A DNA stretch of 46,801 bases from the NCBI GenBank assembly GCA_017859745.1, contig JAFMML010000001.1, positions 45,557 through 92,357 of the forward strand. The letters run 5' to 3'. The translations under genes were made by a program, and so were the position numbers. This stretch comes from Planctomycetota bacterium (GTDB taxonomy: Bacteria > Planctomycetota > Phycisphaerae > Phycisphaerales > SM1A02). Positions 8,729-40,523 of this stretch are shown here, in pieces (within the stretch, counting starts at the first letter, position 1; the number at the start of each line of letters is the position of its first letter). The notes beneath the pieces were generated by a model. The model searched no databases, was not told the origin of the DNA, and saw only the letters and a program-made list of their open reading frames with translations.

Positions 8729-9208
8729 ATGGCCGCCCGCCGAGACGATTCGAAGAGGGAGTGGTTCGAGGAGGGCCTGGCGTTCTCCTGCACCCAGTGC
8801 GGCAACTGCTGCACCGGTCCGCCGGGTGCGGTGTGGTTCACCGACGAGGAGGAGCTCGCGATGGCCGCGGCGCTCTCGCTGGACCTCGAGACGTTTCGCG
8901 ATCGCTACGTGCGGCGTCTCGGTCGCAGCCGCTCGCTCGTCGAGCGCGAGACCGACTTCGGCCACGACTGCGTCTTCCTCGATCGCGAGTCCCAGCCGGG
9001 CAAGGCGGTCTGCTCGATCTACAAGGCCCGCCCGAGGCAGTGCCGGACATGGCCGTGGTGGCCGGAGAACCTCGCGAGTCGGCGTGCGTGGGAGGCGACG
9101 CGACGACGCACGCCGTGTCCGGGCATGGGTCAGGGCACCGTGCACTCGCCGCAGCAGATCCGGATCGTCCGCGACGAGCAGGCCGCACAGGGCGATCCGG
9201 CATGGTGA
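8729..9208 (+). CDS. YkgJ-family cysteine-cluster protein (first of pair)
   Basis: This 159-residue protein has the CxxCGxCC signature of the YkgJ / UPF0153 zinc- or iron-chelating domain (C21, C24, C27, C28 in SCTQCGNCCTGP). Downstream cysteines come in CVFLD, VCSIYKARPRQCRTW and PCPGMG, the usual second half of the site, and the ARPRQCRTWPWWP block is typical of the family. The molecular function of the family is not established; a metal-binding role is inferred from the cysteines. The ATG at 8729 is preceded by a weak GAGAG. Its end overlaps the start of the next gene by 7 nt, so the two are probably co-translated. Confidence 0.87.
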   Translation: MAARRDDSKREWFEEGLAFSCTQCGNCCTGPPGAVWFTDEEELAMAAALSLDLETFRDRYVRRLGRSRSLVERETDFGHDCVFLDRESQPGKAVCSIYKARPRQCRTWPWWPENLASRRAWEATRRRTPCPGMGQGTVHSPQQIRIVRDEQAAQGDPAW

Positions 9209-9738
9209 GCGGCGAGGAGGATCCCCGAGTCGTGGCGGAACTCGCAGCGGCATGGCGGATCGCCGCGGCTCGGCCCGAGGTCGACGCCGCGATCCGCTCG
9301 ATCCACCAGTCGATCGATCGCGAGGTCTCGAGGCGACGGCCGCTGTGTCTGGCCAGCGGCAACTGCTGCCGCTTCGAGGCGTTCGATCATCGCCTGATGG
9401 TCACCGGGCTCGAGACCGCCTGGACGCTTCATGAGCTCGAGAATTCGGTGGTCGATGCGGCGGCGATCGATGCGGCGGCGATCGTCGACGCACGGGAGCG
9501 GGGCGACTGCCCATTTCTCGTCGGCGACGGGCGGCGTCTGTGCGGCATCCGCACCGCCCGCCCGATGCCCTGTCGGACCTTCTTCTGCGATCGCGCCGCG
9601 ACCGGCTGGCAGCAGGATCTCCACGAGCGGAGCCTCTCCGAATTGCGGTCCCTGCACGACCGGTTCGAGATTCCCTACCGCTACCTCGAGTGGCGCGACG
9701 CCCTCGCCTGGCTCGTCCGGCCCCGCGGGGTCAGCTGA
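9202..9738 (+). CDS. YkgJ-like cysteine-cluster protein (second of pair)
   Basis: The 178-residue protein has the same plan as its neighbour but is divergent: CLASGNCCRFEAF (C49, C55, C56), GDCPFL, LCGIRTARPMPCRTFFC. The first cysteine spacing is C-x5-CC rather than CxxCGxCC, so one ligand differs from the family norm. It also contains a 5-residue tandem repeat (DAAAI twice) encoded by a 15-bp direct repeat. The ATG at 9202 lies inside the end of the preceding gene, and the start of similarity agrees. The two proteins together suggest a hetero-pair or an old duplication. The stop overlaps the convergent mrp gene by 8 bp. Function unknown. Confidence 0.8.
   Translation: MVSGEEDPRVVAELAAAWRIAAARPEVDAAIRSIHQSIDREVSRRRPLCLASGNCCRFEAFDHRLMVTGLETAWTLHELENSVVDAAAIDAAAIVDARERGDCPFLVGDGRRLCGIRTARPMPCRTFFCDRAATGWQQDLHERSLSELRSLHDRFEIPYRYLEWRDALAWLVRPRGVS
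9454..9483 (+). repeat. 15-bp tandem duplication inside the second YkgJ-like gene
   Basis: GATGCGGCGGCGATC occurs twice head to tail with no mismatch and adds five in-frame residues (DAAAI). It looks like a recent slippage or duplication event. Confidence 0.85.
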
Positions 9739-10831
9739 CGCTGAGGGTCGGTTGCACGTAGCGGCCCTGCATGCTCGCGATCGAGATGCGACTCGCAACG
9801 CTGCGGCAGAGATCGTCGATCTGTTCTCCCATCGAGTTCTCGCCCTCCCAGTTGGCCAGCGGGGTGCCGGCGTCGCAGTGCTCTCGAAGGCTCGAGGTGA
9901 TGGGGATGGAGCCGAGGAAGGGCACGCCCATCGTCTGGGCCATGACCTCCGCGCCGCCGCGGCCGAACAGGTCGTACTCCTTGCCATCGTCGCCCACGAA
10001 GAAGCTCATGTTCTCGACGACGCCGAGCAGTTCGATGCCGAGCTGGCTGAACATCCGCACCGCGCGACGGGCATCGTCCTGGGCCACCCGCTGCGGGGTG
10101 CACACGACGACGGCACCGGTCAGCGGCAGCAGCTGGGCCATGGTCAAGGCGACGTCGCCGGTGCCGGGCGGCAGGTCGATGACGAGATAGTCGAGTTCCC
10201 CCCAGTCGGTCTGGGTCGCCAGCTGCTTGAACGCGCCGTGGGCCATCGGGCCTCGCCAGATCAGCGGCTTGTCGGGGTCGACCAGCTTGCCGATGGTCAT
10301 GGTCTTCACGCCGTGGACCTCGAACGGCACGAGCATGTTGCCCTCGGCGGCGGTGGCCAGGTCGGTCAGGCCGAGCATGGTGGGCACGCTGGGGCCGTAG
10401 ATGTCCGCATCGAGCAGTCCGACCTTCGCGCCGAGCCGCGCGAGACCGACGGCGAGCAGCGTCGAGACGGTGCTCTTGCCGACGCCGCCCTTGCCGGCGC
10501 CGACCGCGATGATCTGGCGAACGTTGGGAAGAGGACTTCCCTGGTCGCGGATCTTCTCGTTGGGCCGTCGGACGTCGGCGGTGAATTCGACGACGACCTC
10601 CGGTTCGACCGCTCCGAGCTCCGCGGCCTTCGCCTTGACCGCCGCCTCGATGTCGCCGCGGATCCGGTCCTTCATGGGACACGCCGGCGTGGTCAGCTCG
10701 ACGACCAGATCGACTCGATCTCCATCGGGCTCGATCTTCTTGACCATGCCCAGAGTGACGAGATCCTTGTGCAGGTCGGGGTCCTCGACGGTGCGGAGGG
10801 CGGCTTCGATCGCATCGCGGGTCAGGGGCAT
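9731..10831 (-). CDS. Mrp/ApbC-family P-loop ATPase, Fe-S cluster carrier type
   Basis: Mrp/ApbC proteins are dimeric P-loop ATPases that carry Fe-S clusters to targets. The 366-residue product has an N-terminal MIP18/DUF59 domain (about residues 1-85, with TTPACP) and a deviant Walker A GKGGVGKS at 113-120, followed by LLDADIYGPSVP and the VIDLPPGTGD switch. The usual CxxC that bridges the cluster, expected just after VENMS, is missing: this protein reads VENMSFFVGDDGKEYDLFG. Some other bacterial lineages also lack it, so loss of function should not be assumed. I chose the start MPLTR because AAGGAG lies 9 nt upstream. It converges with the YkgJ pair, 8 bp overlapping. Confidence 0.93.
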   Translation of the reverse strand: MPLTRDAIEAALRTVEDPDLHKDLVTLGMVKKIEPDGDRVDLVVELTTPACPMKDRIRGDIEAAVKAKAAELGAVEPEVVVEFTADVRRPNEKIRDQGSPLPNVRQIIAVGAGKGGVGKSTVSTLLAVGLARLGAKVGLLDADIYGPSVPTMLGLTDLATAAEGNMLVPFEVHGVKTMTIGKLVDPDKPLIWRGPMAHGAFKQLATQTDWGELDYLVIDLPPGTGDVALTMAQLLPLTGAVVVCTPQRVAQDDARRAVRMFSQLGIELLGVVENMSFFVGDDGKEYDLFGRGGAEVMAQTMGVPFLGSIPITSSLREHCDAGTPLANWEGENSMGEQIDDLCRSVASRISIASMQGRYVQPTLSVS

Positions 10832-11081
10832 CCGGGAGGGCTCCTTCGGCATGGATCCTCGGCGGGCGAGGGGTGGAGTCGGACTCGAATCGGCCGATGA
10901 TACGGGACGGGTTCGCCGGACCCGACGCCGGATTCGGGATCCTCGGCAATCGGCCGGCAGATCCCCCGTTGAGCGGAAGCGGCAACGAACGCCGCCGAGA
11001 TCTCGACCGACACGCCTCGTCCCGACCACGTGCGTTCGGGACGATCCGACCAACCACATTCCAGTCATCAGGAGTCCCGTC

Positions 11082-11978
11082 ATGAACACCACGCTTCGAG
11101 TCGTTGCCGCCTTCGCGCTGGCGGCGCCGTTCGCCTCGGTCTCGCTCGCCGACGCCTCGGCGCCCCCGCCTCCGCCGCCGGCCGATCGCGGTTTGCTGTC
11201 CGGCCCCGACGTCGACAAGGACGCTTCGCAGGGGCGCCGCCAGTTCGGGCCTGGGGACGCTCGGATGAGAGACGGCGATCGCGAAGGGCAGCAGGGGCGC
11301 CGCGGGGCCGGCGCGATGCGTCGCTTCGCCATGCTTGCGACGGCCGTGCGCGACGCCGAACCGACGCCCGAGCAGGCGGCCGCGGTGCGGACCTATCTCG
11401 GCGAAGTGCGCCTGAAGGCCCAGACGTTCGCGAAGGAGCATGGCGAGGAGATGCGCAAGCTCGTTCGCGTGCGGCGGGAACTCGTCGCCGACGGCGGCGA
11501 CCTTCGCGAGGTCGATGCGGAGATCCTCGCTCTGCGCACGAGCTTCATGAAGCCGGGCGAGATCCTTCGAAACGTGCAGGACCGACTTGGACCCGAGCAA
11601 CGCGAGCGGTTCCGCGAGTCTCTCCAGCGCCAGATCCGAGCCGCGATGGAGCGGACGCGAATGCAACGTCGGGGCGAGATGGGCGCCGAGGGTGGCATGC
11701 CCGCGGAGCCTCGTCGTCGCGGCGGCCGTCCGGAGGGACCTGCCATGGACGGTGCCGACGGTCCACGCGGTCGTGGCGCGATGGGCGGGCCTGCGTTCGG
11801 CGGTTCGATCGAGGAGGTGTTCGAGGCCGAACTGCTGCTCGAGGTGATGCGAGGGAGCCTGCGTGGCGAAGGTGATCGCGGGCGAGGCGATCGTCCGGGT
11901 GCTCCTTCCACCGATCGGCCCCGTCGGGGCGAGAACCGGCCGCCCCTCGATCTCGACACCCCGCCGAACGAGGATTGA
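11082..11978 (+). CDS. Secreted Arg/Gly/Glu-rich hypothetical protein
   Basis: I do not recognise a family. The 298-residue product begins with a signal peptide (MNTTLRVVAAFALAAP..., likely cut near residue 23, SLA/DA) and a Pro-rich linker. The middle (about 80-195) is predicted helical with regular charged heptads (EEMRKLVRVRRELV, LGPEQRERFRESLQ), which recalls the general plan of periplasmic helical proteins of the CpxP/Spy kind, but I see no clear LTxxQ signature. The C-terminal third is low-complexity Gly/Arg/Pro. AGGAG lies 7 nt before the ATG. A good terminator follows. It is divergent from mrp. Confidence 0.75.
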   Translation: MNTTLRVVAAFALAAPFASVSLADASAPPPPPPADRGLLSGPDVDKDASQGRRQFGPGDARMRDGDREGQQGRRGAGAMRRFAMLATAVRDAEPTPEQAAAVRTYLGEVRLKAQTFAKEHGEEMRKLVRVRRELVADGGDLREVDAEILALRTSFMKPGEILRNVQDRLGPEQRERFRESLQRQIRAAMERTRMQRRGEMGAEGGMPAEPRRRGGRPEGPAMDGADGPRGRGAMGGPAFGGSIEEVFEAELLLEVMRGSLRGEGDRGRGDRPGAPSTDRPRRGENRPPLDLDTPPNED

Positions 11979-12032
11979 CCGACGCGGTCCGCTCCGCGAC
12001 GTCGGATCGAGACCGAGCTCCGACGAACGAAC

Positions 12033-12065
12033 GACGCCCCGCCGATCGGCGGGGCGTCTTCGTTT
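12033..12065. terminator. Rho-independent terminator shared by two convergent genes
   Basis: GACGCCCCGCC and GGCGGGGCGTC form a perfect 11-bp stem around GATC, followed by TTCGTTT on the plus strand. It lies 54 nt after the secreted hypothetical gene and 41 nt past the 3' end of the pseudopilin gene. It is the most convincing terminator in the window. Confidence 0.85.
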
Positions 12066-12106
12066 GACGGTGGGATGTCGCCGGTTCCGGCGCGGACGAG
12101 TCTGGA

Positions 12107-13111
12107 TCAGCCGCCGGTGAACACCACGACGTCGTCGTAGTCCCCGACGATGCCCGGCTTGACGTAGCTGCCGCTCCGGATGTTGGTCTGCGGCGCGACC
12201 TGAGTGCCGGGACCGTCGTACTGGCTGAAGTAGACCCCGTCGGCGCCCGAGGACATCAGGACGATCTTGCCCTTCGCGGTGCCGATGGCGCCACCGCTGT
12301 TGGGCTGGTTCTCGTTGCCGAATCCGGGATGGCGGATCAACTGGGCGAGAGTCTTCGCGCGGTTCGCGCCGGAGTTCAGTCGAATCACGCTGTCGGCCTG
12401 CGTCTGGCCGAGCTCGCCGAGAAAGTCGCTGAGCAGATACGGGTAGATCGACTCGATCACGAACTGGTTGCGGACGCCGCTGGAGTACTCGCCCACGAGG
12501 TCGCCGACGCCCCGCGCGGACCGCAGGTAGATGACCGGTTGCCCCCAGGCGTCGAGCAGATCCGGAATGGCCTTGTCGTCGGCGGTGCCGTCGGCGAGGA
12601 CCTGGCCGGTCGTCGGAGCGAGTTCCGTCGCCTTCGGACTGAAGAACGGCGCGTAGGACTGGCCGGCGATCCGCGGCCCCTTGCCGATCTCCGAAGGGTT
12701 GTAGCGGATCGCGAAGGTGTTCGGTCCGCTGCCGAAGGTGATCTGCGGCCAGGTCGAGTAGGGCGCCTGGTTGTACTCGGGATCGTTCTGATCGATGGCG
12801 CCGCCCATCAGGTGGAAGATCGCGTTCTCGGTGCCGCTGATCTGCGGATCCGAGGCGAGGATCTCCTCCGGCACGATGCCGGGGTAGAACCCGAACTCCT
12901 GACGGAACGCCTCACAGGCCTTGGCGAACTCCTCCATGGTCGCGTTGGTCTCGGCGACCTTCGCTCGCTCGTTGACCTTGCCGAGGGCCGGCAACAGGAT
13001 GCCGATGAGCAGGACGATGATCCCGATGACGATCAGCAGTTCGGTGATCGTGAATCCGGGAACGCCAAGGCGGGCCAAGCGTCGTGTCGGTCGAGGATTG
13101 GAACGGGACAT
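12107..13111 (-). CDS. Type II secretion/type IV pilin-like pseudopilin (GspG-like)
   Basis: The 334-residue protein carries an N-terminal class III signal: basic leader, then VPGFTITELLIVIGIIVLL. Cleavage is expected after G19, leaving F20 as residue 1 and E24 as the conserved Glu5. The hydrophobic helix is followed by an amphipathic segment (KVNERAKVAETNATMEEFAKAC) and a long globular domain with QEFGFYPGIVPEE and DLLDAWGQPVIYL, a pattern common in GspG-like major pseudopilins. It is longer than classical GspG (about 140 aa), so its role in a secretion system, pilus or surface fibre is open. AAGGAG precedes the ATG at 13109-13111. No peptidase, ATPase or secretin gene is nearby. Confidence 0.88.
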   Translation of the reverse strand: MSRSNPRPTRRLARLGVPGFTITELLIVIGIIVLLIGILLPALGKVNERAKVAETNATMEEFAKACEAFRQEFGFYPGIVPEEILASDPQISGTENAIFHLMGGAIDQNDPEYNQAPYSTWPQITFGSGPNTFAIRYNPSEIGKGPRIAGQSYAPFFSPKATELAPTTGQVLADGTADDKAIPDLLDAWGQPVIYLRSARGVGDLVGEYSSGVRNQFVIESIYPYLLSDFLGELGQTQADSVIRLNSGANRAKTLAQLIRHPGFGNENQPNSGGAIGTAKGKIVLMSSGADGVYFSQYDGPGTQVAPQTNIRSGSYVKPGIVGDYDDVVVFTGG

Positions 13112-28695: not shown

Positions 28696-29526
28696 TCAGC
28701 CGTCGTCCTCGGAAGAGGCCGGCGGGAAGAGGTCGGAAGCGCTCGGGGCGTCGCCGTCGGTCCCGGTCGTCGCCGGATCGGGCGTCGAGAGCAGGTCCTG
28801 CAGGAGATCGTCCGCGATCGGCGTACTCAACGGGGTCAACGACTCGGGCGCGGGCAGATCGTCCTGACTCGGGATCGGCAGCGTCTCGGCGAGCGCCGGC
28901 AGACCTTCGATGCGACGGTCCGCCCACGCGACCACCTTCGGGTAGCGATCGCCCGCGGCGTCGCGGCCCTGCTTGAGAAAGGCCTCGGCGTTGGCGAGAT
29001 CGCCGCGACTCTCGGCGATGGCGGCACGCCCGAACCAGGCCGACACTCGAAGCGGCGCGAACTTGCCGCCCGGATCGGGGCCTGCGGCGTCGAGCGACTC
29101 GAGCGCGTCGCGGTACGCCGCGTCGGCGGCGTCGAGAAACTCGCCGCGGGTGGTCGCGTCGAGGCGGGCGTCCTCCTGATCGGGCGTCCGGTCGAAACGG
29201 ACCCCGCTCTGGATCGAGGCGAGATAGCGGTCGCCGGCGGAGAGTTGCGCGAGGGCCGCCACGCTGTCGATGCCGGCGTGGCGACTGGCGACCTCCTCGT
29301 AGCTGACAGGGAGGCTGGCCGCGGTCAACTCGATCCATGCCGTGTCGCGGGCCTCGGCCTGACGCTGTTCCCAGATGTTCCATCCCATCCACCCCAGCAG
29401 GACCACGAGGACCAGCAGCAGCCAGTTGAGTCCCTTGGTCTTGAGCCAGGTGATGAACTCCTCGTTGAGCCGACTCTCGGTGAGGTCGGTCTCCTTGATC
29501 TGAGTGAGGCGGTTGTCGCGGTCCAT
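28696..29526 (-). CDS. Membrane-anchored TPR-like protein (YfgM-like)
   Basis: The 276-residue protein has a cytoplasmic N terminus, a single transmembrane segment at about 34-52 (LNWLLLVLVVLLGWMGWNIW) and an outer helical region with repeat-like hairpins (AAYRDALESLDAA, VSAWFGRAAIAESRGDLANAEAFLKQGRDAAG). This plan matches YfgM-type proteins, which in E. coli help SecYEG and periplasmic chaperones, but similarity is by layout only. The C-terminal 60 residues are Pro/Ser/Asp-rich. GGAG lies about 7 nt before the ATG at 29524-29526; a TACACT box sits about 45 nt upstream. Confidence 0.75.
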   Translation of the reverse strand: MDRDNRLTQIKETDLTESRLNEEFITWLKTKGLNWLLLVLVVLLGWMGWNIWEQRQAEARDTAWIELTAASLPVSYEEVASRHAGIDSVAALAQLSAGDRYLASIQSGVRFDRTPDQEDARLDATTRGEFLDAADAAYRDALESLDAAGPDPGGKFAPLRVSAWFGRAAIAESRGDLANAEAFLKQGRDAAGDRYPKVVAWADRRIEGLPALAETLPIPSQDDLPAPESLTPLSTPIADDLLQDLLSTPDPATTGTDGDAPSASDLFPPASSEDDG

Positions 29527-29620
29527 GAGGCACTCCGGTCGGGGTCTTCGCCGAATCGGCGAACCGAGGAGTGTAGTGCCCCGGACGCGGATCGCGATCG
29601 CCTTCGCCCCTCGAGAGCCC

Positions 29621-30655
29621 CTACTTGAGCGAGCGAAGCGACGACTCGATCCGGTCTCGGCAGGCCGCAAGGTGGGCCGGCGAGCCCTCCGTCCGGGCGT
29701 ACGCGGGGGCCGTGGCGGCCATCAACGTGCGGCGGATGGCCGCCAGACGGGCGTGGTCATCGCCATTGTCGAGACCGGCCTCCTTGCGGGCCTTCGCGAT
29801 GGCGCGGACCGGAGGATGCCCCGCGATCCGGTCGGGCCGACTCCAGTGGAGGCGTTCGAGATAGATCGCATCCTCGATCCAGTGCCCGGTGCGAACCTCG
29901 GCGAAGTCGATGAGGCAGACCTCCGGCGACGTCCGACCGGTCGCATCGATGGGCGTTCGGCACATCGCGTTCCCGGGATGGAGGTCGCCGTGGATCCACT
30001 CGATCGGAGCTCGGCCACGCCACGTCTCCAGCATGGTCTCGAGGCGGCGCTCGCATTCGCGGAGCAGGCGGTTCCACTCCTTGCCACCTTCGAGCCGGGC
30101 ATCCTTCACCTTGCGACGCGACTGCTCGAGGAGCTCCGACCAGCCGTCTTCCGGGCGGAGATCGCCGACGGGATGCGGCGCGGACGCGGTCGCGAATCCC
30201 GCGATCGCCGTGGCGATCGGTTCGACGAATCGGGCCTGCCAGTCGAGGGCCAACGGCCCGTGCGGCAGATGCTCGATGACCGCCCACGCGAGGTCGTAGC
30301 CGCCAAGGGTCTCGCCGCCGGCCACGAAGTCCGGAACGTGGGGCGAACGACCGCCGAGGGCGCGGAGCCATCGCAGTTCACGCGGATGCAACGGCATCTT
30401 CACGAGCACGGTTCGCCGGCCGTCCTCGCCTCGCCACTCCGCCTTGCCCGTGGCGGCGCCGCCACGCTGCCAGTCCGTTCGGAACCAGGTGATCGAGTCG
30501 AGGCGACCTTGGCAGACCTGCTCGAGCACCGGCTCGAGGCTGGCGGCGAGGTCGCGTCCTCCGGGGCCGGAGCCTCCGGGGGCCTCGCCGTCGCGCTCTT
30601 CGTCTCCGGACTGCACGGGTCGCACCGTCGGCGAGTCTAGGTCGAGACCACGCAT
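29621..30655 (-). CDS. Phosphotransferase of the APH/choline-kinase fold
   Basis: The 344-residue protein has the kinase-fold catalytic loop WIHGDLHPGNAM (HGDxHxxN) and the metal-binding CLIDFAEVRTGHWIEDAIYL, with an upstream lysine in TVLVKMPLHPRE as a likely ATP contact. Such proteins phosphorylate aminoglycosides, choline, sugars or other small molecules; nothing here fixes the substrate, and it need not be a resistance gene. The drawn start is the ATG at 30653-30655. A GTG at 30623-30625 is also attractive because a TAGACT box lies 8 nt upstream of it. The gene may be co-transcribed with the downstream YfgM-like gene. Confidence 0.83.
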   Translation of the reverse strand: MRGLDLDSPTVRPVQSGDEERDGEAPGGSGPGGRDLAASLEPVLEQVCQGRLDSITWFRTDWQRGGAATGKAEWRGEDGRRTVLVKMPLHPRELRWLRALGGRSPHVPDFVAGGETLGGYDLAWAVIEHLPHGPLALDWQARFVEPIATAIAGFATASAPHPVGDLRPEDGWSELLEQSRRKVKDARLEGGKEWNRLLRECERRLETMLETWRGRAPIEWIHGDLHPGNAMCRTPIDATGRTSPEVCLIDFAEVRTGHWIEDAIYLERLHWSRPDRIAGHPPVRAIAKARKEAGLDNGDDHARLAAIRRTLMAATAPAYARTEGSPAHLAACRDRIESSLRSLK

Positions 30656-30747
30656 GCGACGAGGCGCGGGACTCGCGACCCCGGCGCGGTTCCGGAGATC
30701 GCCATGGAACGCCTCCGGCGGCGACGGTGGGGCGGATCCGGTGCACG

Positions 30748-30753
30748 TAGCAT
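30748..30753 (+). promoter_or_regulatory. TAGCAT -10 box placed for a leaderless HAD gene
   Basis: TAGCAT, six nucleotides GGGTCG, then ATG. It is the same hexamer and spacing as at def. Confidence 0.5.
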
Positions 30754-30759
30754 GGGTCG

Positions 30760-31638
30760 ATGCCCGAGGGACGACGCAGACTCATCGCCATCGATCTCGA
30801 CGGCACGCTCTACGGCCGAGGCGGCGCGGTGTCGGCGGCGAACGTCCGGGCGATCGCGGCGGCCCGTGCCGCCGGCCATCGTGTGGTGATCGCGACGGGG
30901 CGATCGTGGCTGGAGAGTCGAGAAGCGCGAGCGGCGCTTCGCGATCATGTCGACGACGACGACGTGCTGATCGGCGCCGGCGGCGCCATCGTCTCGAGGC
31001 TCGCGGACGGGCGCACCCTCGACCGCGATCGAATGGACGCCGAGTCCACGACGGCGGTGGGGCGTTGCCTCGCGCGACACGGTCACCATGTCCAGCTGCT
31101 GCAGGATCCAGACACGGCGCAGTGCGACTACCTGCTCGTCGGGGATCGCCTCGATCCGACGCTGTCGTGGTGGCTCGATCGGTACGGCCACCGCACCCGA
31201 ACGCTCGCGGACCTTCCGACGCGGCCGGAACTCGACCACACGGTGCGGGTCGGAACCGTGACCACGGCGCGGGAACTCGCCACCGTCGTCGCCGAACTGA
31301 GACGGGACCTCGGGGATCGCCTGACCATCCATCACTGGCACGCGGTGGGGCCTCCCGACGGGCGCGACCGGCCCGAGCTGGTCGAGGTCTTCGCGCCCGG
31401 AACCAGCAAGTGGCGAGCGATCGAGCGACTTTGCGGGCGGTGGCGGATCGATCCCGCCGACACCGTCGCGATCGGCGACGGCCTCAACGATCTCGAGATG
31501 ATCGACGCCGCAGGGCTGGGCATCGCGGTCGAGAATGCCGACGACCGCGTGCTCGAGGTGGCGGATCGACGTGTGGCGGCCCACGATCGGGACGGCGTGG
31601 CCGAGGCGATCTCGGCGGTGCTCGACGGCCGCTGGTGA
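30760..31638 (+). CDS. HAD-superfamily Cof-type phosphatase
   Basis: Cof-type HAD enzymes are soluble phosphatases acting on small phosphorylated metabolites. The 292-residue protein has motif I IDLDGTLYG (D12, D14), motif II in VVIATGRSW, a lysine in PGTSKWRAI, and motif IV IGDGLNDLEMIDAAG, plus the alpha/beta cap of subclass IIB between them. Substrate unknown. The ATG lies 6 nt after a TAGCAT box. Its stop is 46 bp before the 1109-aa gene, which has its own box, so the two may be separately transcribed. Confidence 0.9.
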   Translation: MPEGRRRLIAIDLDGTLYGRGGAVSAANVRAIAAARAAGHRVVIATGRSWLESREARAALRDHVDDDDVLIGAGGAIVSRLADGRTLDRDRMDAESTTAVGRCLARHGHHVQLLQDPDTAQCDYLLVGDRLDPTLSWWLDRYGHRTRTLADLPTRPELDHTVRVGTVTTARELATVVAELRRDLGDRLTIHHWHAVGPPDGRDRPELVEVFAPGTSKWRAIERLCGRWRIDPADTVAIGDGLNDLEMIDAAGLGIAVENADDRVLEVADRRVAAHDRDGVAEAISAVLDGRW

Positions 31639-31672
31639 GCCTCGCCCGGACTCCCCCAGGAGTTCCCTCACT

Positions 31673-31678
31673 TAGGAT
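31673..31678 (+). promoter_or_regulatory. TAGGAT -10 box placed for the leaderless IorA/B-like gene
   Basis: TAGGAT, six nucleotides GCACGC, then GTG. No Shine-Dalgarno lies close to the start. Confidence 0.5.
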
Positions 31679-31684
31679 GCACGC

Positions 31685-34600
31685 GTGGCGGACGCTTCCC
31701 AGCGGCACCTTCGCGACCTGCCCCTCGCGGCGGCGGACGGTCGTCATCTGTACACCGCCAGCGACGCGATCCTGAAGGGCGTCCTCGAGAGCGAGATCCC
31801 GGTGGTCCGGCTGGTGGCGCCGCCCCGCCCACCCTTCGCCGGCCTGCTGCGAAGGACCGCCGGCGATGCGGCGGCGCTCTTCGACCGGCACGGTTGCGAA
31901 CGCCTTTCGGTGATGGACGCGTCTCGCGCGGTCACCCTCGCGGCCCGAACCGCCGCGGGAGGTCGTGCCGCGGTCGTCCACATCGCCAACGACCAGCTCT
32001 TCTACGCGATGCCGGCGGTGCAGGCGGTGCCGCGACGAACCGATGGGGGCGGGGGCCTCGTGATCATCTGCGAGGACAACCCCGAGTTGGCTCCGGCGGC
32101 GCCGCCCCGAGTGCTGCTGTCGGCGGCGGGTCTTCCCTGTCTCGAGCCGCACGATCTCGAGAGCCTCCGAGATGCGGTGGAGACGGCGATTCGCGCGAGC
32201 CGACTCGACGGACGTCCCGCCGCGATCGTCGCCGACGTCGGTCTGCTTCGCTCCCTCGACACCCTCGAGGCCCGTCCCAATCGGATCGTCGATCGTCTCG
32301 ATGCGGCGATCGCCGGCCGTCGGGTGCCGCGAATTCCTCGGGGGGGCGATCCCCCCGACCTCCTCAGACTGGCCCGTCGCCTCGAACTCAACATCGCACG
32401 GTCGATGCCGAGTCCCGGCGAACGCGAACCGCTCGGTCTGCTGGTGGCTGGCAACGCGCTTCGCGCCACCACCCACATGCTCGCGGATCTGGGTCTCTCC
32501 GGTTCGGTTCCGCTGGTGGGTCTGGGCATGACCCATCCCCTCGACGACGCCTTGATCGATCGACTGCTGCAGCGATGCGGGGAGGTGGTCGTGCTCGAAA
32601 CCCGGCCCGGCGGACTCGCCGCGGAACTGGCCGAGATCGTCGAGCGGTCGCGTCGCCAAGGCGAGCAGCCGGCGCAGGTCCTGATGCGGGAGATCCCCGA
32701 GGCGTCCGGCGCTCGGCGGATCGAGATCGGCGACGCGCTGCTTCCCTCCCGCCTCGCCCGCCACCTGATCTCACGCCTCCACGCGATCCGGCCCGGACTC
32801 GACATCGGATCGAAGCTCGCGCAACTTCCCGAATCCCTGCTGGCCCTGTCGCTGCCGTCCCGCGGAGCCGGCCTTGGGACGTCGGGGGCGGTGGTGCGGG
32901 TGGAGCGGGCGATCGATGATGCGGATCGCATCCTCCGCACCGCCGACGGCGAGCGCATCGCGCTGGTCACCGAGGCGGTTGCGGCGCTCCCGGAGATCGA
33001 TCGAGTCGTTCCGGTCGAGATCTGGGATCGGAAGCGGTTCGGGTTCGAGGGGCCGGCCGCGATCCGCCAGGCGACCCGGGTCGGCGGGGCCCGCCTGATG
33101 GTGGTGTGCGACGTGGGTGGCGATGGCGAGGTGGACGTCGCCCGCATCGCCCGGTCCGCGGTGCCCGAGGAGCCTTCCGAGCGTCTCGCGGTGGAGGGGG
33201 TCGATCTGCACGATCGCGGAGGACTTCGGCAGTCACTGGTCGAGGCCGCGCGCGCGGATCGGGTCGCGGTGATCATCGCGCGCGACGGTCCGCCGCCTCG
33301 CCTCGATCCTCTCGCCGCGGAGCGGGAGCTCGCCGACGTCGATCGTCTGGGTTTCCGTCCTCGGCAGCGCCTGGTGCTGCCCGCCGAGAGCGCATGCGAG
33401 CGGCGTGGGGTTCCGCTGCGTCCCATTCCCGATCCACCGCCGCTTCGAAGTCGGGGCTGGGCTCGCCGCCTTCGGCTCGAGGGCATCGTCGGCATCCGAC
33501 TGCGGATCAGACCGTTCCTCGAACAGGTCGATGCCATTCGCTCGAAGCCGCCGGTCGCCATCCGTCTCGGCGACGGCGCGGCGCCGGTGGCGCCTCGCCC
33601 GCGACACGCCGCGGCGCCGCGATGGCGCGTCCATCTCGCCGGAGTCCGCGGCGACGCCCCGGGGGTGGCGGCACAGGTGCTGTGCGAGGCGGGCGACGCG
33701 ATGGGCTATCGCGTGCAGGCGACCTGGGAACCGACGCCGGTGGTGCGAGGATGGCGAGCGTGGACGCAGATCCAGTTCTCGCGACCCACCGCAGATGCGG
33801 CGCACGCCCGGACGAGCTCGATTCCCTACGGCGAGGCGGACCTGCTGCTGGGCGTCGATCCGCTCGAGACGCTCCGAGCCCTCGGTCCCGATCCGTCGCT
33901 TCGGGTCGCGAACCCCGCGCGAACCACCGCGGTGGTCAACGCGGCGCCGTTGGAGGAGGACACGGCGTTCGAGGTGCCGGATGGAACGCTCGCCGACGCG
34001 GTCGCCATCGCGTGCGACGGCGACTCGATCGTCGAGAATCTGCTGGAGGCCTGCCGTCACTCGTTCCTGACCGAACGGGTGCTGGATCTGGTGCTGCTCG
34101 GTGTGGCGTACCAGCGGGGTCTGGTGCCGGTGACGCCCGAGGCGTTGCGGCACGGGGTGCAGAAGGTCGAGGCGCAGGGCCTCGGACGTGCCGCCGAGGC
34201 GATCGCCTTCGGCCGCGCCCTGGCGGTCCGCCGCCCGGCGGTGTGGCCGACCGATCCGGACGACGCGCTCCGCCTCGATCCGTTGCCGCGAATGGTGCGG
34301 CGGGCGGCTCAGGGTGCGTTCGGTCGCGGCACGGCGGCGTGGGAGCGGCTGCGCCGCCAGGTCGAGTCCTCGCTCGAGTCGATGCCGGGCCTGCGTGAGA
34401 GCGAGGCGGGCCGCCGCGCCGCCGCGGAGTTCGCCGACGCCATGAGCCGCGCGGCCATCTGGGGCGGCCACGCGCACGCCCAGCGCCTTGCCGATCGGGT
34501 CAGGCGCATCTACGCGGTCGACCGCGGCGACACCGCGCGACGCCTGACCACGGCGGCGATCCGCCCGATCGCGGAGGCGATGCTTCCCCGAGATCTCTTT

Positions 34601-35014
34601 CACGTCAGCTCGTCGATGCTGGCGCCGCGGTACGTGGCGGCCCTGCGGTCGAGGCTTCGGATCCGCCCCGCCCGCGGGGATCGACTCGAACGTCGGTTCC
34701 TGTTCCGGCTCGACGCCATCGCCCTCGATCGGCGGCTCCGTCTCGATCTGCGGACGAGCGACTGGCTGCCGATCGTGGTGTCTCGCCTTGGGCGATTCTG
34801 GCCGTGGCGGTGGCGGGGTACGCCGAGCGAGCGGGCGCTGCGCGACGCGGTCTTCGCCGAAGTCGAGAAGGTCGTGGTGGATCTCGGCGGCGACGAGGTG
34901 TCGCCTGAGGTCCACCGGGCATGGGTCGATCGCTTCAGGGCGATGACGCCGGGACCGGGACGCCTGAGGGGCGGCGACGTGGTCAGGCCTCGGTCGGACG
35001 GCCCTCGCGGGTGA
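31685..35014 (+). CDS. Indolepyruvate:ferredoxin oxidoreductase-like fusion lacking Fe-S and TPP motifs
   Basis: The 1109-residue protein keeps the order of single-chain IorA-IorB enzymes. Residues about 20-185 resemble the IorA pyrimidine domain (GGGGLVIICEDNPE, 121-134, and LPCLEPHDLESLRDA); 246-325 resemble its transketolase-C-like domain (LVGLGMTHPLDDALID); 646-850 resemble the IorB gamma domain (HLAGVRGDAPGVAAQVL, PYGEADLLLG, AYQRGLVPV); 900-1085 look like the DUF6537 tail. Between them (380-640) the thiamine-diphosphate domain is short and I find no proper binding motif. The ferredoxin-type CxxCxxC cluster is gone: at the matching place only one cysteine remains (C571, LVLPAESACERRG). 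It is therefore unlikely to catalyse ferredoxin-linked 2-oxoacid oxidation. GTG start after a TAGGAT box. The end overlaps rlmN by 32 bp. Confidence 0.72.
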   Translation: MADASQRHLRDLPLAAADGRHLYTASDAILKGVLESEIPVVRLVAPPRPPFAGLLRRTAGDAAALFDRHGCERLSVMDASRAVTLAARTAAGGRAAVVHIANDQLFYAMPAVQAVPRRTDGGGGLVIICEDNPELAPAAPPRVLLSAAGLPCLEPHDLESLRDAVETAIRASRLDGRPAAIVADVGLLRSLDTLEARPNRIVDRLDAAIAGRRVPRIPRGGDPPDLLRLARRLELNIARSMPSPGEREPLGLLVAGNALRATTHMLADLGLSGSVPLVGLGMTHPLDDALIDRLLQRCGEVVVLETRPGGLAAELAEIVERSRRQGEQPAQVLMREIPEASGARRIEIGDALLPSRLARHLISRLHAIRPGLDIGSKLAQLPESLLALSLPSRGAGLGTSGAVVRVERAIDDADRILRTADGERIALVTEAVAALPEIDRVVPVEIWDRKRFGFEGPAAIRQATRVGGARLMVVCDVGGDGEVDVARIARSAVPEEPSERLAVEGVDLHDRGGLRQSLVEAARADRVAVIIARDGPPPRLDPLAAERELADVDRLGFRPRQRLVLPAESACERRGVPLRPIPDPPPLRSRGWARRLRLEGIVGIRLRIRPFLEQVDAIRSKPPVAIRLGDGAAPVAPRPRHAAAPRWRVHLAGVRGDAPGVAAQVLCEAGDAMGYRVQATWEPTPVVRGWRAWTQIQFSRPTADAAHARTSSIPYGEADLLLGVDPLETLRALGPDPSLRVANPARTTAVVNAAPLEEDTAFEVPDGTLADAVAIACDGDSIVENLLEACRHSFLTERVLDLVLLGVAYQRGLVPVTPEALRHGVQKVEAQGLGRAAEAIAFGRALAVRRPAVWPTDPDDALRLDPLPRMVRRAAQGAFGRGTAAWERLRRQVESSLESMPGLRESEAGRRAAAEFADAMSRAAIWGGHAHAQRLADRVRRIYAVDRGDTARRLTTAAIRPIAEAMLPRDLFHVSSSMLAPRYVAALRSRLRIRPARGDRLERRFLFRLDAIALDRRLRLDLRTSDWLPIVVSRLGRFWPWRWRGTPSERALRDAVFAEVEKVVVDLGGDEVSPEVHRAWVDRFRAMTPGPGRLRGGDVVRPRSDGPRG

Positions 35015-36077
35015 GGCGTGTGGTCGCGGGTGCGGACTCGTGCCTCAACTGGCCGCACGCCGCGGCGATGTCGCGACCGCGACTGGCCCGGATGTGGGTG
35101 TTGACGCCTCGGTCCCTGAGGATCGTCTGGAACTCGTGGACCGCGGACGTGGCGGGTCGGTCGAACGGCATCCCCTTGACCTCGTTCCAGCGGATCAGGT
35201 TCACGTTGCTTCGGAGACGCTTCGCCACCGAGGCGAGTTCCCGAGCGTGTTCGGGACGGTCGTTGAACCCGCCGAGCAGCAGGTACTCGAGGGTGATTTC
35301 CCGTCCGCTCTTGGCGAACCACTCCCGGCACGCCTCGAGGATCTCGTCGATCGTGGCGAACTCCGCCCACGGAATGATGCGGCGACGGAGTTCGTCGTTC
35401 GGCGCGTGGAGCGAGAGCGCAAGGTTCACCGGGAGTTCGAACCGGGCGAAGCGGCGGATCGCCGATGGCACGCCCACCGTGGAGACCGTGATCCGGCGGG
35501 CCGAGATGCCCGCGCCCCACGGGGCGTTGAGGATGCGAATCGCCGCGGTCGTCGCAGGCAGGTTCGCCAGCGGCTCGCCCATGCCCATGAAGACGACGTG
35601 GCTGATTCGGCCGACGCCCTCGAGGCGACCGAGGCGGTGCACCTGCTCGACGATTCGGGCGACGGACAGATGGCCGTCGAAGCCGAGCCCGCTGGCGCAG
35701 AACCGGCATCCCACGGGGCATCCGACCTGACTCGAGATGCACGCGGTGCGGCGATTCTCGGCGGGGATCATCACGCACTCGGTCGCGAGCGGCTCGCCTC
35801 GGGAGTCCTGCTCCGGCCAGGCCAGCAGCAGCTTGCGGGTGCCGTCGGTGGCCAGGCGATCGGCGATCGTGTCGCCTTCCGCCTGGACGAACGTCTCGTC
35901 GAGCCACGCGCGTTGCGATCGGGACAGGTCGGTCATCGCCTCGGGTCGAAGTTCGCCGCGTTCCCAGACCCATTTCACGACCTGTTGGCCGAGTCGGCGG
36001 GGGAATCCGGCTTCGACGGCGGCCGCGGCGAGCGAATCGGGCGATTCGCCGAGCAGGCCGCGACGGACGGCGGGCAT
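34983..36077 (-). CDS. rlmN: Dual-specificity 23S rRNA/tRNA adenine-C2 methyltransferase RlmN
   Basis: RlmN is a radical-SAM enzyme that methylates C2 of A2503 in 23S rRNA and A37 of some tRNAs. The 364-residue product has the Fe-S motif CPVGCRFC (C120, C124, C127), the SAM-region FMGMGEPLAN, STVGVPSAI, SLHAPNDELR and the mechanistic C-terminal Cys in IAAACGQL. The start is uncertain: the ATG at 36075-36077 lacks a Shine-Dalgarno, and a GTG at 36095, 11 nt after the ispH stop, is possible. It lies downstream of ispH on the same strand. Confidence 0.94.
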   Translation of the reverse strand: MPAVRRGLLGESPDSLAAAAVEAGFPRRLGQQVVKWVWERGELRPEAMTDLSRSQRAWLDETFVQAEGDTIADRLATDGTRKLLLAWPEQDSRGEPLATECVMIPAENRRTACISSQVGCPVGCRFCASGLGFDGHLSVARIVEQVHRLGRLEGVGRISHVVFMGMGEPLANLPATTAAIRILNAPWGAGISARRITVSTVGVPSAIRRFARFELPVNLALSLHAPNDELRRRIIPWAEFATIDEILEACREWFAKSGREITLEYLLLGGFNDRPEHARELASVAKRLRSNVNLIRWNEVKGMPFDRPATSAVHEFQTILRDRGVNTHIRASRGRDIAAACGQLRHESAPATTRLTREGRPTEA

Positions 36078-37225: not shown

Positions 37226-38239
37226 GTGCCGCCCGCGACCTCGATCGCCGTTGCCGATCTCTCCCGTTGGATCGATGCGCCCGCCTCCGACGAGGCGGCG
37301 ACGCCCTGCGAGCTGGATGAGGCACGGCGTTTCGTCCACGACTGGACCCGACGGCACCAGGAGAACTTCCCGGTGTTGACGGCGCTGGTGCCGCCGGCGC
37401 TGAGGGACGACTTCGCCGCGGTCTACGCGTTCTGCCGGGCCGCCGACGATCTTGGGGACGAGGCGGGCTCGCCGGAGAGGGCCACCGCGCTGCTGGCGTG
37501 GTGGAGGGCCGATCTGGAGCGAACCTTCGACGACGCCGCGGCGCCGCGTCATCCGGTGTTCGTCGCGCTGCGGTCGACCGCGCGGCGACGGGGCCTGTCG
37601 ATCGAGCCGTTCCGCAACCTGCTCGACGCCTTCGAGAGCGACCAGCGGGTGTCCCGCTACGAGACGTGGGAGCAGGTGATCGGCTACTGCAGGCTCAGCG
37701 CCGATCCGGTCGGCCGAATCGTCCTCCGCCTGTTCGGCGCTCCAGAGGACCGCGAGGCGCTCGAGGCGTCCGACGCGATCTGCACCGGCCTGCAGCTCGC
37801 CAACCACTGGCAGGACATCCGACGGGATCTCGTGGAGCGCAACCGGATCTACGTGCCGGCCGACCTGATCGCAGGCGACGGACGTCCCTTCGACTCGGTG
37901 GAGACGTTCGAGTCGAGACTCCGACGCAGCATCGAGCTCGGCCACGGCGCCGATCGCGAGTTCATGCCGAGCAGTCGGCGACTCGTGCAGGACCTCGTCG
38001 AGCGAACCTGGCCCTGCTTCGAGCGGGGACGAGAGCTCCTCGAACGGCTGCCCGCGGACGCCCGTCCGGTGATCGAGCTCTTCGTCGAGGGGGGCGAACT
38101 CGTGCTGCGACGCCTCGAAGCGTGGGACTTCGAGTCCGTGCTGCATCGCCCTGCGGTCGGGCGATTGGCGAAGGCCGGTCTCGTCGCCCGGGCCTGGGTG
38201 CGAAGTCGCCTTGCGGCTCGTTCGGATCGCCGGCCGTGA
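37226..38239 (+). CDS. hpnC: Hydroxysqualene synthase HpnC
   Basis: In the three-step bacterial route, HpnD makes presqualene diphosphate from two FPP, HpnC converts it to hydroxysqualene and HpnE reduces that to squalene. This 337-residue trans-isoprenyl synthase-fold protein has a first Asp-rich site AFCRAADDLGDE (D74, D75, D78) and a second QLANHWQDIRRD (D197, D201). NHWQD and RNRIYVP are HpnC-like. Its position first in a hpnC-hpnD-hpnE run supports the call. The end overlaps hpnD (GTGA). Squalene may feed hopanoids, sterols or C30 carotenoids; no cyclase is in the window. Confidence 0.92.
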   Translation: MPPATSIAVADLSRWIDAPASDEAATPCELDEARRFVHDWTRRHQENFPVLTALVPPALRDDFAAVYAFCRAADDLGDEAGSPERATALLAWWRADLERTFDDAAAPRHPVFVALRSTARRRGLSIEPFRNLLDAFESDQRVSRYETWEQVIGYCRLSADPVGRIVLRLFGAPEDREALEASDAICTGLQLANHWQDIRRDLVERNRIYVPADLIAGDGRPFDSVETFESRLRRSIELGHGADREFMPSSRRLVQDLVERTWPCFERGRELLERLPADARPVIELFVEGGELVLRRLEAWDFESVLHRPAVGRLAKAGLVARAWVRSRLAARSDRRP

Positions 38240-39129
38240 GCGGTGGGGGGCCTTCGATCGAGGCCAGCCGCGCCGCCTGCGAGTCGATCGTGCGCCGGCG
38301 GGCTCTCAACTTCTTCCACGGACTTCGCCTGACGCCCGAACCGGAGCGCGCGGCGCTCTTCGCGCTGTACGCGTGGATGCGGGAGGTCGACGACATCGTG
38401 GACGACGGCGGCGACGATCGCGAGACCGCTCTCGATCGCTTCGCGGCCCACACCGATCGGGCGCTCGCGGGCGAGTCGCCCGACGACGGGCGTGCGATGT
38501 GGCCGGCGTTCGTCGAGGCGGTGGTCCGCCATCGTCTTCCGGCGGGTCCCTTCCACGACATGATCGAAGGCCAGCGTGACGACATCGACTTCACGTCGTT
38601 GAAGGACTGGCCCGCGTTGCGGGAGTTCTGCCGTCGGGTCGCGAGCACGGTCGGGGAACTGTGCGTCAGGATCTGGGGGCTCGACGACCCGGAGTCGCTG
38701 GATCTCGCGGAGCGTCGGGGCATCGCCTTCCAGCTGACGAACATCCTCCGAGACGTGCGCGAGGACCACGCCCGCGGTCGGGTCTACCTCCCGCAGGAGG
38801 AGCTGCGCGCGGCCTCGCTCTCGACGGAGGACCTGCTCGCATGGCGTCGGCCCGCCGAGTGCGAGGTGTTCGTGGCGGCGCAGTGCCTCCGAGCCCGCGC
38901 CCACTACGACGAGAGCGCCCCGCTCGAGGAACGCCTTCGGCCGGAATGCCGTCCCACGCTGTGGGCCATGACGCGGATCTACTCCGACATCCTCGGCCGA
39001 ATCGAGGCTCGTCCCTCTCGCCTCGCAGGGGCACGGGTGCGCCTGGGAACCCTGCGGAAGATCTGCATCGCGTTCGAGGCGAAGAGGCTCGGTCGTCGCT
39101 GGGCGCGGTCCGCCGCGACGCCGGCATGA
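38236..39129 (+). CDS. hpnD: Presqualene diphosphate synthase HpnD
   Basis: The 297-residue protein condenses two farnesyl diphosphates. It has the first Asp-rich motif in WMREVDDIVDD (D52, D53, D56), MIEGQRDDIDF, and the second in FQLTNILRDVREDHARGRVYLP. This LTNILRDVxED pattern separates HpnD from HpnC. The GTG start at 38236 overlaps the hpnC stop by 4 nt (GTGA), and its own stop overlaps hpnE by 4 nt (ATGA), which points to translational coupling. Length is usual for the family. Confidence 0.93.
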   Translation: MSGGGPSIEASRAACESIVRRRALNFFHGLRLTPEPERAALFALYAWMREVDDIVDDGGDDRETALDRFAAHTDRALAGESPDDGRAMWPAFVEAVVRHRLPAGPFHDMIEGQRDDIDFTSLKDWPALREFCRRVASTVGELCVRIWGLDDPESLDLAERRGIAFQLTNILRDVREDHARGRVYLPQEELRAASLSTEDLLAWRRPAECEVFVAAQCLRARAHYDESAPLEERLRPECRPTLWAMTRIYSDILGRIEARPSRLAGARVRLGTLRKICIAFEAKRLGRRWARSAATPA

Positions 39130-40523
39130 GCGCCGCCACGGTCGTCGTCGGTGGTGGCATCGCCGGCCTCGCTGCGGCGATCCGTCTGGCCGATGCCGGG
39201 CGGCCCGTGGTGGTCCTCGAGACCCGGCCCCGCCTAGGCGGTCGCGCGACCTCGTTCGAGGATCCTCGCAGCGGGCGACTGCTGGACAACTGCCAGCACG
39301 TGGTGCTCGGCTGCTGCACGAACCTGCTGGACTTCTACGAGCGACTCGGCGTGCTCGACGAGATCGAGTGGCATCGCCGCTTCTTCTGGGCGAACCCGCC
39401 GCATCCGCCGGATCGACTGGCGATCGGAGGTCTGCCAGCGCCGCTGCATCTCGCGGCCGACTTCCTCCGGCAGCGGCGCCTGACGTGGAGCGAACGTCGG
39501 CGCATCGCGTCGGCGTTGCGTCGGATGCTCGCCATGGGACGCTCGGCAAGGCTTCGGGAGACGGATCGGCCCTTCGCCGACCTGCTCGCGGAACTCGGCC
39601 AGGGACCACGCGAGCTCGAGCAGTTCTGGAGCCCGATCATCGTGAGCGCCTGCAACCTCGATGTGGACGATGTGGCGTCGAGCGTGGCGCTTCAGGTCGT
39701 CCAGGAGGGCTTCCTGGCGCATCCGTTCGCGGCGGCGATGGGGCTGGCGAAGGGCAGTCTGCTGTCGCTGTACGACCCCGCGACGAGGATCCTGCGCGAG
39801 GCGGGTGGCGAGATCCGAACCGGAGTCAGCGTCAAGAGCCTGGTCCATGAAGGGGATCGCATTCGTCGGGTCGTGACCGACGAGGGGGTGATCGACTGCG
39901 CCGCAGTGGTCGCGGCGGTGCCGCCCGACCGTCTGGCGAAGCTCTGCGGGTCGAGCTTGCGCGACGTCGATGCTCGCCTTTCCCGACTGGATTCGATCGA
40001 GTTCAGCCCGATCCTCGGCGTCCACCTCTTCTTCGAGCGTCCGTTCACCGACCTGCCGCATCTGGTCCTGCCGGGCCGGCCGACGCAGTGGATCTTCGTG
40101 AAGGGCGTCGACGGCACCGGTCGCTTCCACGTGCACGCGGTCGTCTCCGCGGCGTTCGACTGGATGTCCCTCGACGAAGCGGCCATCGCCGAGCGGGTCC
40201 TCGAGGACCTGCGGTGGGCCATGCCGGACGCGACGATCGACGATCCCGTGGAGGTCCGATCGGTGAAGGAGAAGCGCGCGACCTTCGCGGCCCGCCCGGG
40301 CATCGATCGCCTGCGCCCCGCGGCACGTTCGCCCGTCGGCGGAGGCATTCGCAACCTTCACCTCGCGGGCGACTGGTGCCGCACCGGATGGCCGGCGACG
40401 ATGGAGGGTGCGGTGCGCAGCGGCTACGCCGCGGCGGCGGCCGTGCTCGGACAGGAGGACGACGGCCTCGTCGACGACCTGCCCACGGCCCGCCTGTCCG
40501 CACTGCTCGGGCTGACGCGATGA
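39126..40523 (+). CDS. hpnE: Hydroxysqualene dehydroxylase HpnE
   Basis: HpnE is an FAD-dependent amine-oxidase/phytoene-desaturase-like flavoprotein that turns hydroxysqualene into squalene. The 465-residue product opens with the dinucleotide site TVVVGGGIAGLAAAIRLADAG, then LETRPRLGGRATSF, LLDNCQHVVLGCCTNLLDFY (typical HpnE block), CNLDVDDVASSVALQVV and the C-terminal FAD-binding LAGDWCRTGWPATMEGAVRSG. It starts with ATG overlapping the hpnD stop and ends overlapping queG, both by 4 nt. Confidence 0.93.
   Translation: MSAATVVVGGGIAGLAAAIRLADAGRPVVVLETRPRLGGRATSFEDPRSGRLLDNCQHVVLGCCTNLLDFYERLGVLDEIEWHRRFFWANPPHPPDRLAIGGLPAPLHLAADFLRQRRLTWSERRRIASALRRMLAMGRSARLRETDRPFADLLAELGQGPRELEQFWSPIIVSACNLDVDDVASSVALQVVQEGFLAHPFAAAMGLAKGSLLSLYDPATRILREAGGEIRTGVSVKSLVHEGDRIRRVVTDEGVIDCAAVVAAVPPDRLAKLCGSSLRDVDARLSRLDSIEFSPILGVHLFFERPFTDLPHLVLPGRPTQWIFVKGVDGTGRFHVHAVVSAAFDWMSLDEAAIAERVLEDLRWAMPDATIDDPVEVRSVKEKRATFAARPGIDRLRPAARSPVGGGIRNLHLAGDWCRTGWPATMEGAVRSGYAAAAAVLGQEDDGLVDDLPTARLSALLGLTR

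Follow-up and report, generated by a model that had tools for sequence, protein, structure and literature searches.

The stretch of DNA analysed here (the window, 46,801 nucleotides from a Planctomycetota bacterium) encodes, at 31685..35014 on the forward strand, a protein of 1109 amino acids (aa) which is related to the single-chain indolepyruvate:ferredoxin oxidoreductases and in which the sites for thiamine diphosphate (ThDP) and for the iron-sulfur (Fe-S) cluster have almost certainly been lost. Enzymes of this kind normally cleave 2-oxo acids with the aid of vitamin B1 and Fe-S clusters. The protein fits the pattern of a pseudoenzyme, its catalytic residues being lost across a clade, the window's family of Phycisphaerales (designated f1 and probably identical with SM1A02 of GTDB), under purifying selection. 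As the cofactor sites are lost and the gene is nonetheless kept intact by selection, the protein probably does another job, and the chances are about even that this fixed pseudo-oxidoreductase acts through its gamma part as a binder of a ligand of the coenzyme A (CoA) type.

The gene is present as a single copy in the window's genome. Its reading frame contains no internal stop codon, as a preliminary description of this DNA had stated, while the good start claimed there proved weak: the first start codon in frame behind a TAG is the GTG at 31685, and upstream of it stand an AGGAG at 22 nucleotides (nt) and only an AGG at 8 nt. Scans of 30500-35300 for promoters and terminators found none. Five parts follow one another on the forward strand: (i) a pyrimidine-type ThDP domain (aa 14-205; 31724..32299), recognized by structure match and alignment, (ii) a transketolase-C-like domain (aa 206-375; 32300..32809), recognized by profile, structure and alignment, (iii) a shrunken pyrophosphate-binding (PP) domain with the former Fe-S segment (aa 376-604; 32810..33496), recognized by the fold match of aa 372-606, (iv) a gamma domain, or domain III (aa 605-855; 33497..34249), which is the most conserved part, and (v) a DUF6537-like helical tail (aa 856-1109; 34250..35011), recognized by alignment with canonical relatives and by the helices of the model. 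The middle domain is shortened, with a median of 239 aa in 83 f1 proteins vs 299 aa in 24 canonical ones.

At the sequence level, the protein matches the NCBIfam profile PRK13030 of the indolepyruvate ferredoxin oxidoreductase family with an E-value of 7e-16 and 57.1 bits, far under the cut-off of 816; L031, a canonical form from Phycisphaerales, is likewise below this cut-off with 454 bits. Pfam POR, the gamma domain, matches at aa 661-828 (E 6e-4) and Pfam transketolase-C at aa 276-334, both under the cut-off. The DUF6537-like tail of the preliminary description stands in so far as it aligns with the tail of L031; Pfam DUF6537, which matches L031 at 5.5e-17, gave no match in the window protein at E <= 1. 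Sequence searches against solved structures returned weak matches only (best E 2.2e-4, 1.4e-3 and 0.41). The AlphaFold model, for which 68 named orthologues were used alongside the window protein, has a mean predicted local distance difference test score (pLDDT) of 89.2 and a predicted template modelling score of 0.88. As a whole it matches pyruvate:ferredoxin oxidoreductase, with a Foldseek E-value of 2.1e-12 to 2c3y_B and a Z of 27.0 to 7plm_A (503 residues aligned within aa 17-850, root-mean-square deviation (rmsd) 4.7). The pyrimidine and transketolase-C-like domains (aa 18-366) match the 2-oxoglutarate:ferredoxin oxidoreductase 6n2n_A with a Z of 28.3 (299 residues, rmsd 3.1). Folded alone, aa 372-606 (pLDDT 84.5) resemble the PP domain of ThDP enzymes: transketolases came out on top of the structure search (best E 8.7e-4), 5b48_B stood at rank 5 (probability 1.00, E 2.3e-3), and the best Z was 10.7 (109 residues, rmsd 2.6). 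According to these models, the protein retains the fold of a 2-oxoacid:ferredoxin oxidoreductase (OFOR), with pyrimidine, transketolase-C-like, PP and gamma domains in one chain. Profile and structure searches thus place it on an oxidoreductase scaffold, and the single-chain layout first proposed is right, because both the whole model and the lone middle domain match the folds of OFORs and ThDP enzymes.

With the single-chain indolepyruvate:ferredoxin oxidoreductases (PRK13030, an IorA-IorB fusion, here represented by L031) the protein shares the domain order from the pyrimidine domain to DUF6537, a co-linear alignment and the gamma core. These canonical forms, however, have the Glu of NEAL, YPGSP, GDG...N, MTGHQ, CPGCPHR, CxxCxxC and a second set of Cys, whereas the window protein retains one Cys. 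It has the fold in common with pyruvate:ferredoxin oxidoreductase (2c3y, 7plm, 6ciq), with about 11% identity, but lacks the ThDP motifs and Fe-S ligands of that enzyme. The alpha subunit of the Sulfolobus 2-oxoacid:ferredoxin oxidoreductase (5b46-5b48) has a similar fold (5b48_C, Z 26.3), and its beta subunit, 5b48_B, is the one matched by the lone middle domain. PMC5020499 gives roles for Glu, Gly-Asp-Gly, Asn and YPITP; the catalytic Glu294, YPITP, Gly-Asp-Gly and Asn118 described there have no counterpart in the window protein.

The loss of the cofactor sites was counted in 83 f1 and 24 canonical proteins. The f1 set was limited to proteins with a length of 950 aa or more, whether complete or cut off at a contig end, none of them more than 90% identical to one already kept. 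L049, L195, L205 and L212 (incomplete), L213 (degenerate, family f4) and L042 (family f6) were left out of the canonical set, and the f4 forms and L041 were shown in the alignment and stood outside the counts. The Glu that activates ThDP, whose place is taken by Ala at aa 79 of the window protein (31919..31921), is present in 24/24 canonical and 0/83 f1 proteins, and the Asp of the GDG metal/diphosphate motif, whose place lies at aa 448-451 (33026..33037), in 24/24 and 1/83, respectively. The MTGHQ block and the CPGC of CPGCPHR are deleted in 83/83 f1 proteins and the PHR that follows CPGC in 82/83. The substrate-side motif YP(I/G)(T/S)P is lost as well, with Tyr at a fraction of 0.00 and Ser at 0.02 of f1 in the matching columns. 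The lone Cys of the former Fe-S segment, C571 (33395..33397), aligns with the first cluster Cys of L031, C648, and is kept in 66/83 f1 proteins, while the later cluster Cys stand at a fraction of 0.00. A CxxCxxC site elsewhere in the chain was rejected, a scan of the f1 proteins from 53 loci having found none. The preliminary description was therefore borne out in its claims that CxxCxxC is gone, that one Cys is left at the matching place and that the shortened middle domain has no ThDP motif. The orthologues proposed there as a check show a loss that is fixed and not random, with neither an intact ThDP pocket nor random decay. Not mentioned there are two further losses in the pyrimidine domain, namely of the catalytic Glu and of the YPGSP block.

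Judged from the alignment, constraint has shifted towards the gamma domain and, to some extent, to the transketolase-C and DUF6537 parts. The canonical set has 57 invariant columns in the pyrimidine domain, 24 in transketolase-C, 85 in the middle domain, 42 in gamma and 14 in the tail, of which 11, 7, 6, 26 and 8, respectively, are kept by at least half of f1. In equal samples of 24 f1 sequences, the mean numbers of invariant columns were 0.6, 11.9, 2.8, 21.1 and 6.9 in the same order, and among the 63 f1 invariants 33 lie in gamma and 15 in transketolase-C. The mean f1 identity to the canonical consensus was 0.22 in canonical-invariant vs 0.19 in variable columns for the pyrimidine domain, 0.10 vs 0.16 for the middle domain, 0.62 vs 0.32 for gamma and 0.47 vs 0.33 for the tail. 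With this control, the old active site is seen to be released and the gamma core guarded. Among the short blocks said to survive, LGMTHPLD does keep P285 and D287, whereas GGGGLVII is not conserved, its one canonical-invariant Gly being kept in 36%. New f1 signatures are (i) the near-invariant R81, two residues past the lost Glu, (ii) PSPGE(R) at 242-247 in the transketolase-C-like domain, (iii) R655 in the re-made glycine loop GxRGxxPG (aa 653-660; 33641..33664), (iv) a GxGRRAW strand near 689-693, from which the window protein itself deviates with RGWRAW, and (v) E717. The loop stands at the place of the canonical GVGGMGIG, with its length and three Gly kept; one further Gly, present in 24/24 canonical proteins, is replaced by Arg in 82/83 f1 proteins. 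The basicity of the tail was considered as a hint of nucleic-acid binding and dropped, the canonical enzymes being equally basic there (median +21 vs +17).

A match to the gene was found in 57/61 f1 genomes, and the 4 genomes with no match are 55-88% complete. All 45 f1 genomes of at least 90% completeness have a match, in two of them (G023 and G038) only as contig-end pieces. The 80 named loci come mostly from metagenome-assembled genomes of Planctomycetota, Phycisphaerae or Phycisphaerales, a few being filed under other names, and f1 is not known other than from metagenome assemblies. The ratio of nonsynonymous to synonymous substitution rates (dN/dS) of the whole gene was 0.04-0.11 in 14 close f1 pairs, the first 14 of 174, with a dS of up to 1.4 in one; these pairs are not independent, since some share members or copy one locus (L015/L084, L058/L112). 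The middle domain is constrained too, with dN/dS of, for example, 0.010/0.32 and 0.071/1.36. Two single copies look damaged, with possible assembly errors: G029 has an in-frame TAG in the matched stretch, and in L141 the longest frame (8971-11220) falls short of the match (9001-12222). These copies and the motif loss itself would suit a decaying relic whose removal is pending, but the dN/dS values and the matches in all near-complete f1 genomes already refute decay as a general account, so that this explanation is the most remote of those considered here and the earlier statement that the gene is no decaying pseudogene holds.

Outside f1, the f2 genomes listed in the relatives search gave no match. 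The canonical form occurs in f5, in part of f6 and in many families of the class. Among 19 class-level loci, hand-picked from the class-wide matches (mostly long ones, from different families), 19/19 keep GD(G/S)TF(F/Y)HSG...N..T(A/G)MTGHQ and CxxCxxC, and the NEA motif is present in 16/16 of those with a complete N-terminus. Degenerate forms are found in f4 (L035, L036, L040, L213) and in one f6 genome (L041). Like f1, they are without GDG and CxxCxxC and stand on the same side of the tree; unlike f1, they have other gene neighbourhoods and no GxRGxxPG loop, and the C571 position is Ala or Trp in the four tested (L035, L036, L040, L041). In the tree (53 rows, gamma and tail columns only), all 23 f1 rows lie on one side of a branch with a Shimodaira-Hasegawa-like approximate likelihood-ratio test value of 100, and another branch, with support 87, separates all 28 degenerate rows from the canonical forms. 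A single loss is compatible with this tree, in which the support of 87 is not decisive. An intermediate form, L042 (genome G065, f6), still has CxxCxxC and the Glu, but its GDG reads GDA and its MTGHQ reads MSGRV; it forms a long branch beside the canonical forms. A phage origin has no support, as tblastn against 50,697 phage records found no match.

The ancestor of the protein would have been a ThDP- and Fe-S-dependent single-chain indolepyruvate:ferredoxin oxidoreductase, of the kind still represented by canonical relatives across the class. Both cofactor sites would have been lost on the line to f1, and the protein kept for another job. In pyruvate:ferredoxin oxidoreductase, as described in PMC8091585, the P-loop of domain III (gamma) binds CoA. 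By analogy, we infer that the gamma domain of the window protein may still bind a phosphate-bearing ligand of the CoA type, through the re-made loop GxRGxxPG around R655 and the GxGRRAW strand. The role of the dead ThDP domains would then be that of a dimer and conformational scaffold, reporting the ligand or presenting it to a partner, possibly the HAD-type hydrolase encoded next door. A joint reading, held only tentatively, is that the whole scaffold is a family-wide core protein independent of ThDP that uses the domain III P-loop either to sense a CoA-type metabolite or, as a new enzyme, to act on one, and, equally tentatively, that it is needed even where no other OFOR is found.

Several observations weigh against such a ligand-binding role. 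Substitutions have occurred in f1 within the canonical glycine loop and the KKG.AIR.GG strand, and CoA binding may hence have been lost with the rest. The transketolase-C domain looks released too, because its canonical invariants are kept no better than its variable columns (f1 identity 0.38 vs 0.39). The HAD-type hydrolase gene (Pfam Hydrolase_3; 30760..31638, forward strand) ends 46 nt before the start codon of the oxidoreductase-like gene and lies directly upstream of it in 67/71 named loci; as it is part of a long conserved block, this adjacency is weak evidence for a joint function, and in 8/67 loci the HAD gene is inverted (same strand in 59/67). A partnership of the two proteins is thus only weakly indicated.

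The main rival to a ligand-binding pseudo-oxidoreductase, and clearly less probable than that, is a new enzyme in which the gamma/DUF6537 pocket is catalytic without ThDP or Fe-S, for example in the conversion of an acyl-CoA or a phosphate ester. Invariant or near-invariant polar f1 residues do crowd the gamma and DUF6537 parts (H650, R655, E717, D719, R798, D801, Q810, R844, D970, D999, R1008), and a hydrolase neighbour would suit a small pathway; against this, no known catalytic motif was recognized and the distinctive C571 is replaced in 17/83 f1 proteins. It is unlikely that the protein binds no small molecule and serves solely as the structural scaffold of a protein complex: a full-length fold with dead active sites, encoded by a core gene in a conserved locus, would agree with this, but conservation peaks at the glycine-rich loops and charged residues of the domain that binds ligands in relatives, which exceeds what a scaffold needs. 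That ThDP is still bound in a half-site or hetero-dimer, another protein contributing ligands, would be in keeping with the persistence of the pyrimidine and PP folds. It is nevertheless highly improbable, as one and the same chain has lost the motifs of both halves of the site throughout the 83 sequences and the ThDP domains retain their former invariants scarcely better than their variable columns.

A role as regulatory or specificity subunit of another OFOR is as improbable as the half-site. Other such enzymes are present in some f1 genomes, POR_N (PF01855) being found in 16/37 sampled. In the other 21, including that of the window (97% complete), POR_N is absent; POR (PF01558) matches in 6 of these 21, and the match is the oxidoreductase-like gene itself. 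Since POR_N alone misses canonical single-chain forms (e.g. in G072), the 21 genomes were searched again with L031. This search found the oxidoreductase-like gene in 20 and nothing in G016 (72% complete), and beyond that gene it gave one weak match, in G027 (E 6e-5, a 357-aa frame with a stop). As no other OFOR was found in 21 of the 37 genomes, the subunit role was rejected and is largely refuted.

Pseudoenzymes derived from kinases or proteases are familiar. In the open-licence literature, no OFOR was found described that retains the fold with both ThDP and Fe-S sites lost, and a search on DUF6537 gave nothing to the point. A pseudoenzyme made from a whole OFOR that is now a family-wide core gene appears to be new. 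Given that f1 is a wide family of Phycisphaerales and has it as a core gene, its role there is probably important. PMC11266412 describes SM1A02 as the larger of the order's families, living mainly in freshwater and in the sea. The conversion of the enzyme into something else should be traceable stepwise, because canonical relatives persist elsewhere in the class and sister families hold additional degenerate lines; such a conversion into another function is open to ordinary biochemistry.

The flanks were compared through named neighbour proteins, clustering of open reading frames being swamped by antisense shadow frames, and neighbours were counted in those of the 80 named loci that have enough sequence. 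The recurrent f1 order is murF - mraY - rluD-type - unknown - (APH kinase) - HAD - oxidoreductase-like gene - rlmN - ispH - hpnCDE - queG, and the most divergent f1 members, L163 and L164, have the same order as far as ispH. The neighbours were present as follows: rlmN 66/71, ispH 58/63, rluD 48/49, hpnCDE 39/54 and mraY 29/45. The products of murF, mraY, ispH, queG, rlmN, hpnC and hpnE exceed at least one NCBIfam cut-off, rluD encodes a RluA-family synthase, and hpnD is below the cut-off. None of the f1 neighbours was found near the f4, f5 and f6 forms within stretches of 19.5 kb (15 loci), and the neighbours of one canonical form (GNAT-aminotransferase, P-type ATPase) have no common theme.

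Within the window, the block includes an hpnC-hpnD-hpnE-like squalene cluster beside ispH (37226-40523, forward strand), which recurs in f1 together with mraY and murF. Furthermore, the reverse strand (28696-29670) encodes a protein of some 323 aa that matches no Pfam family, and relatives of it occur at the same place in many f1 loci. In f5, one small frame separates a canonical oxidoreductase fusion from a nearby protein that combines a GNAT acetyltransferase with a class I/II aminotransferase (L156:12231-13943, G072). Two loci, L043 and L044 (G010 and G033), hold open frames of 1142-1175 aa in which an IorA-like ThDP protein is fused with a flavin/NAD(P)H oxidoreductase-like part, presumably of the GltD type, with further CxxC motifs. 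Finally, the f6 genome G081 encodes, right after L041, a fusion of 1153 aa (L166:11264-14722) in which the alpha and beta parts of dehydrogenase E1 are joined to a lipoyl domain and a ketoacyl-ACP synthase III; it looks as though a single chain both produced and consumed an acyl starter unit.

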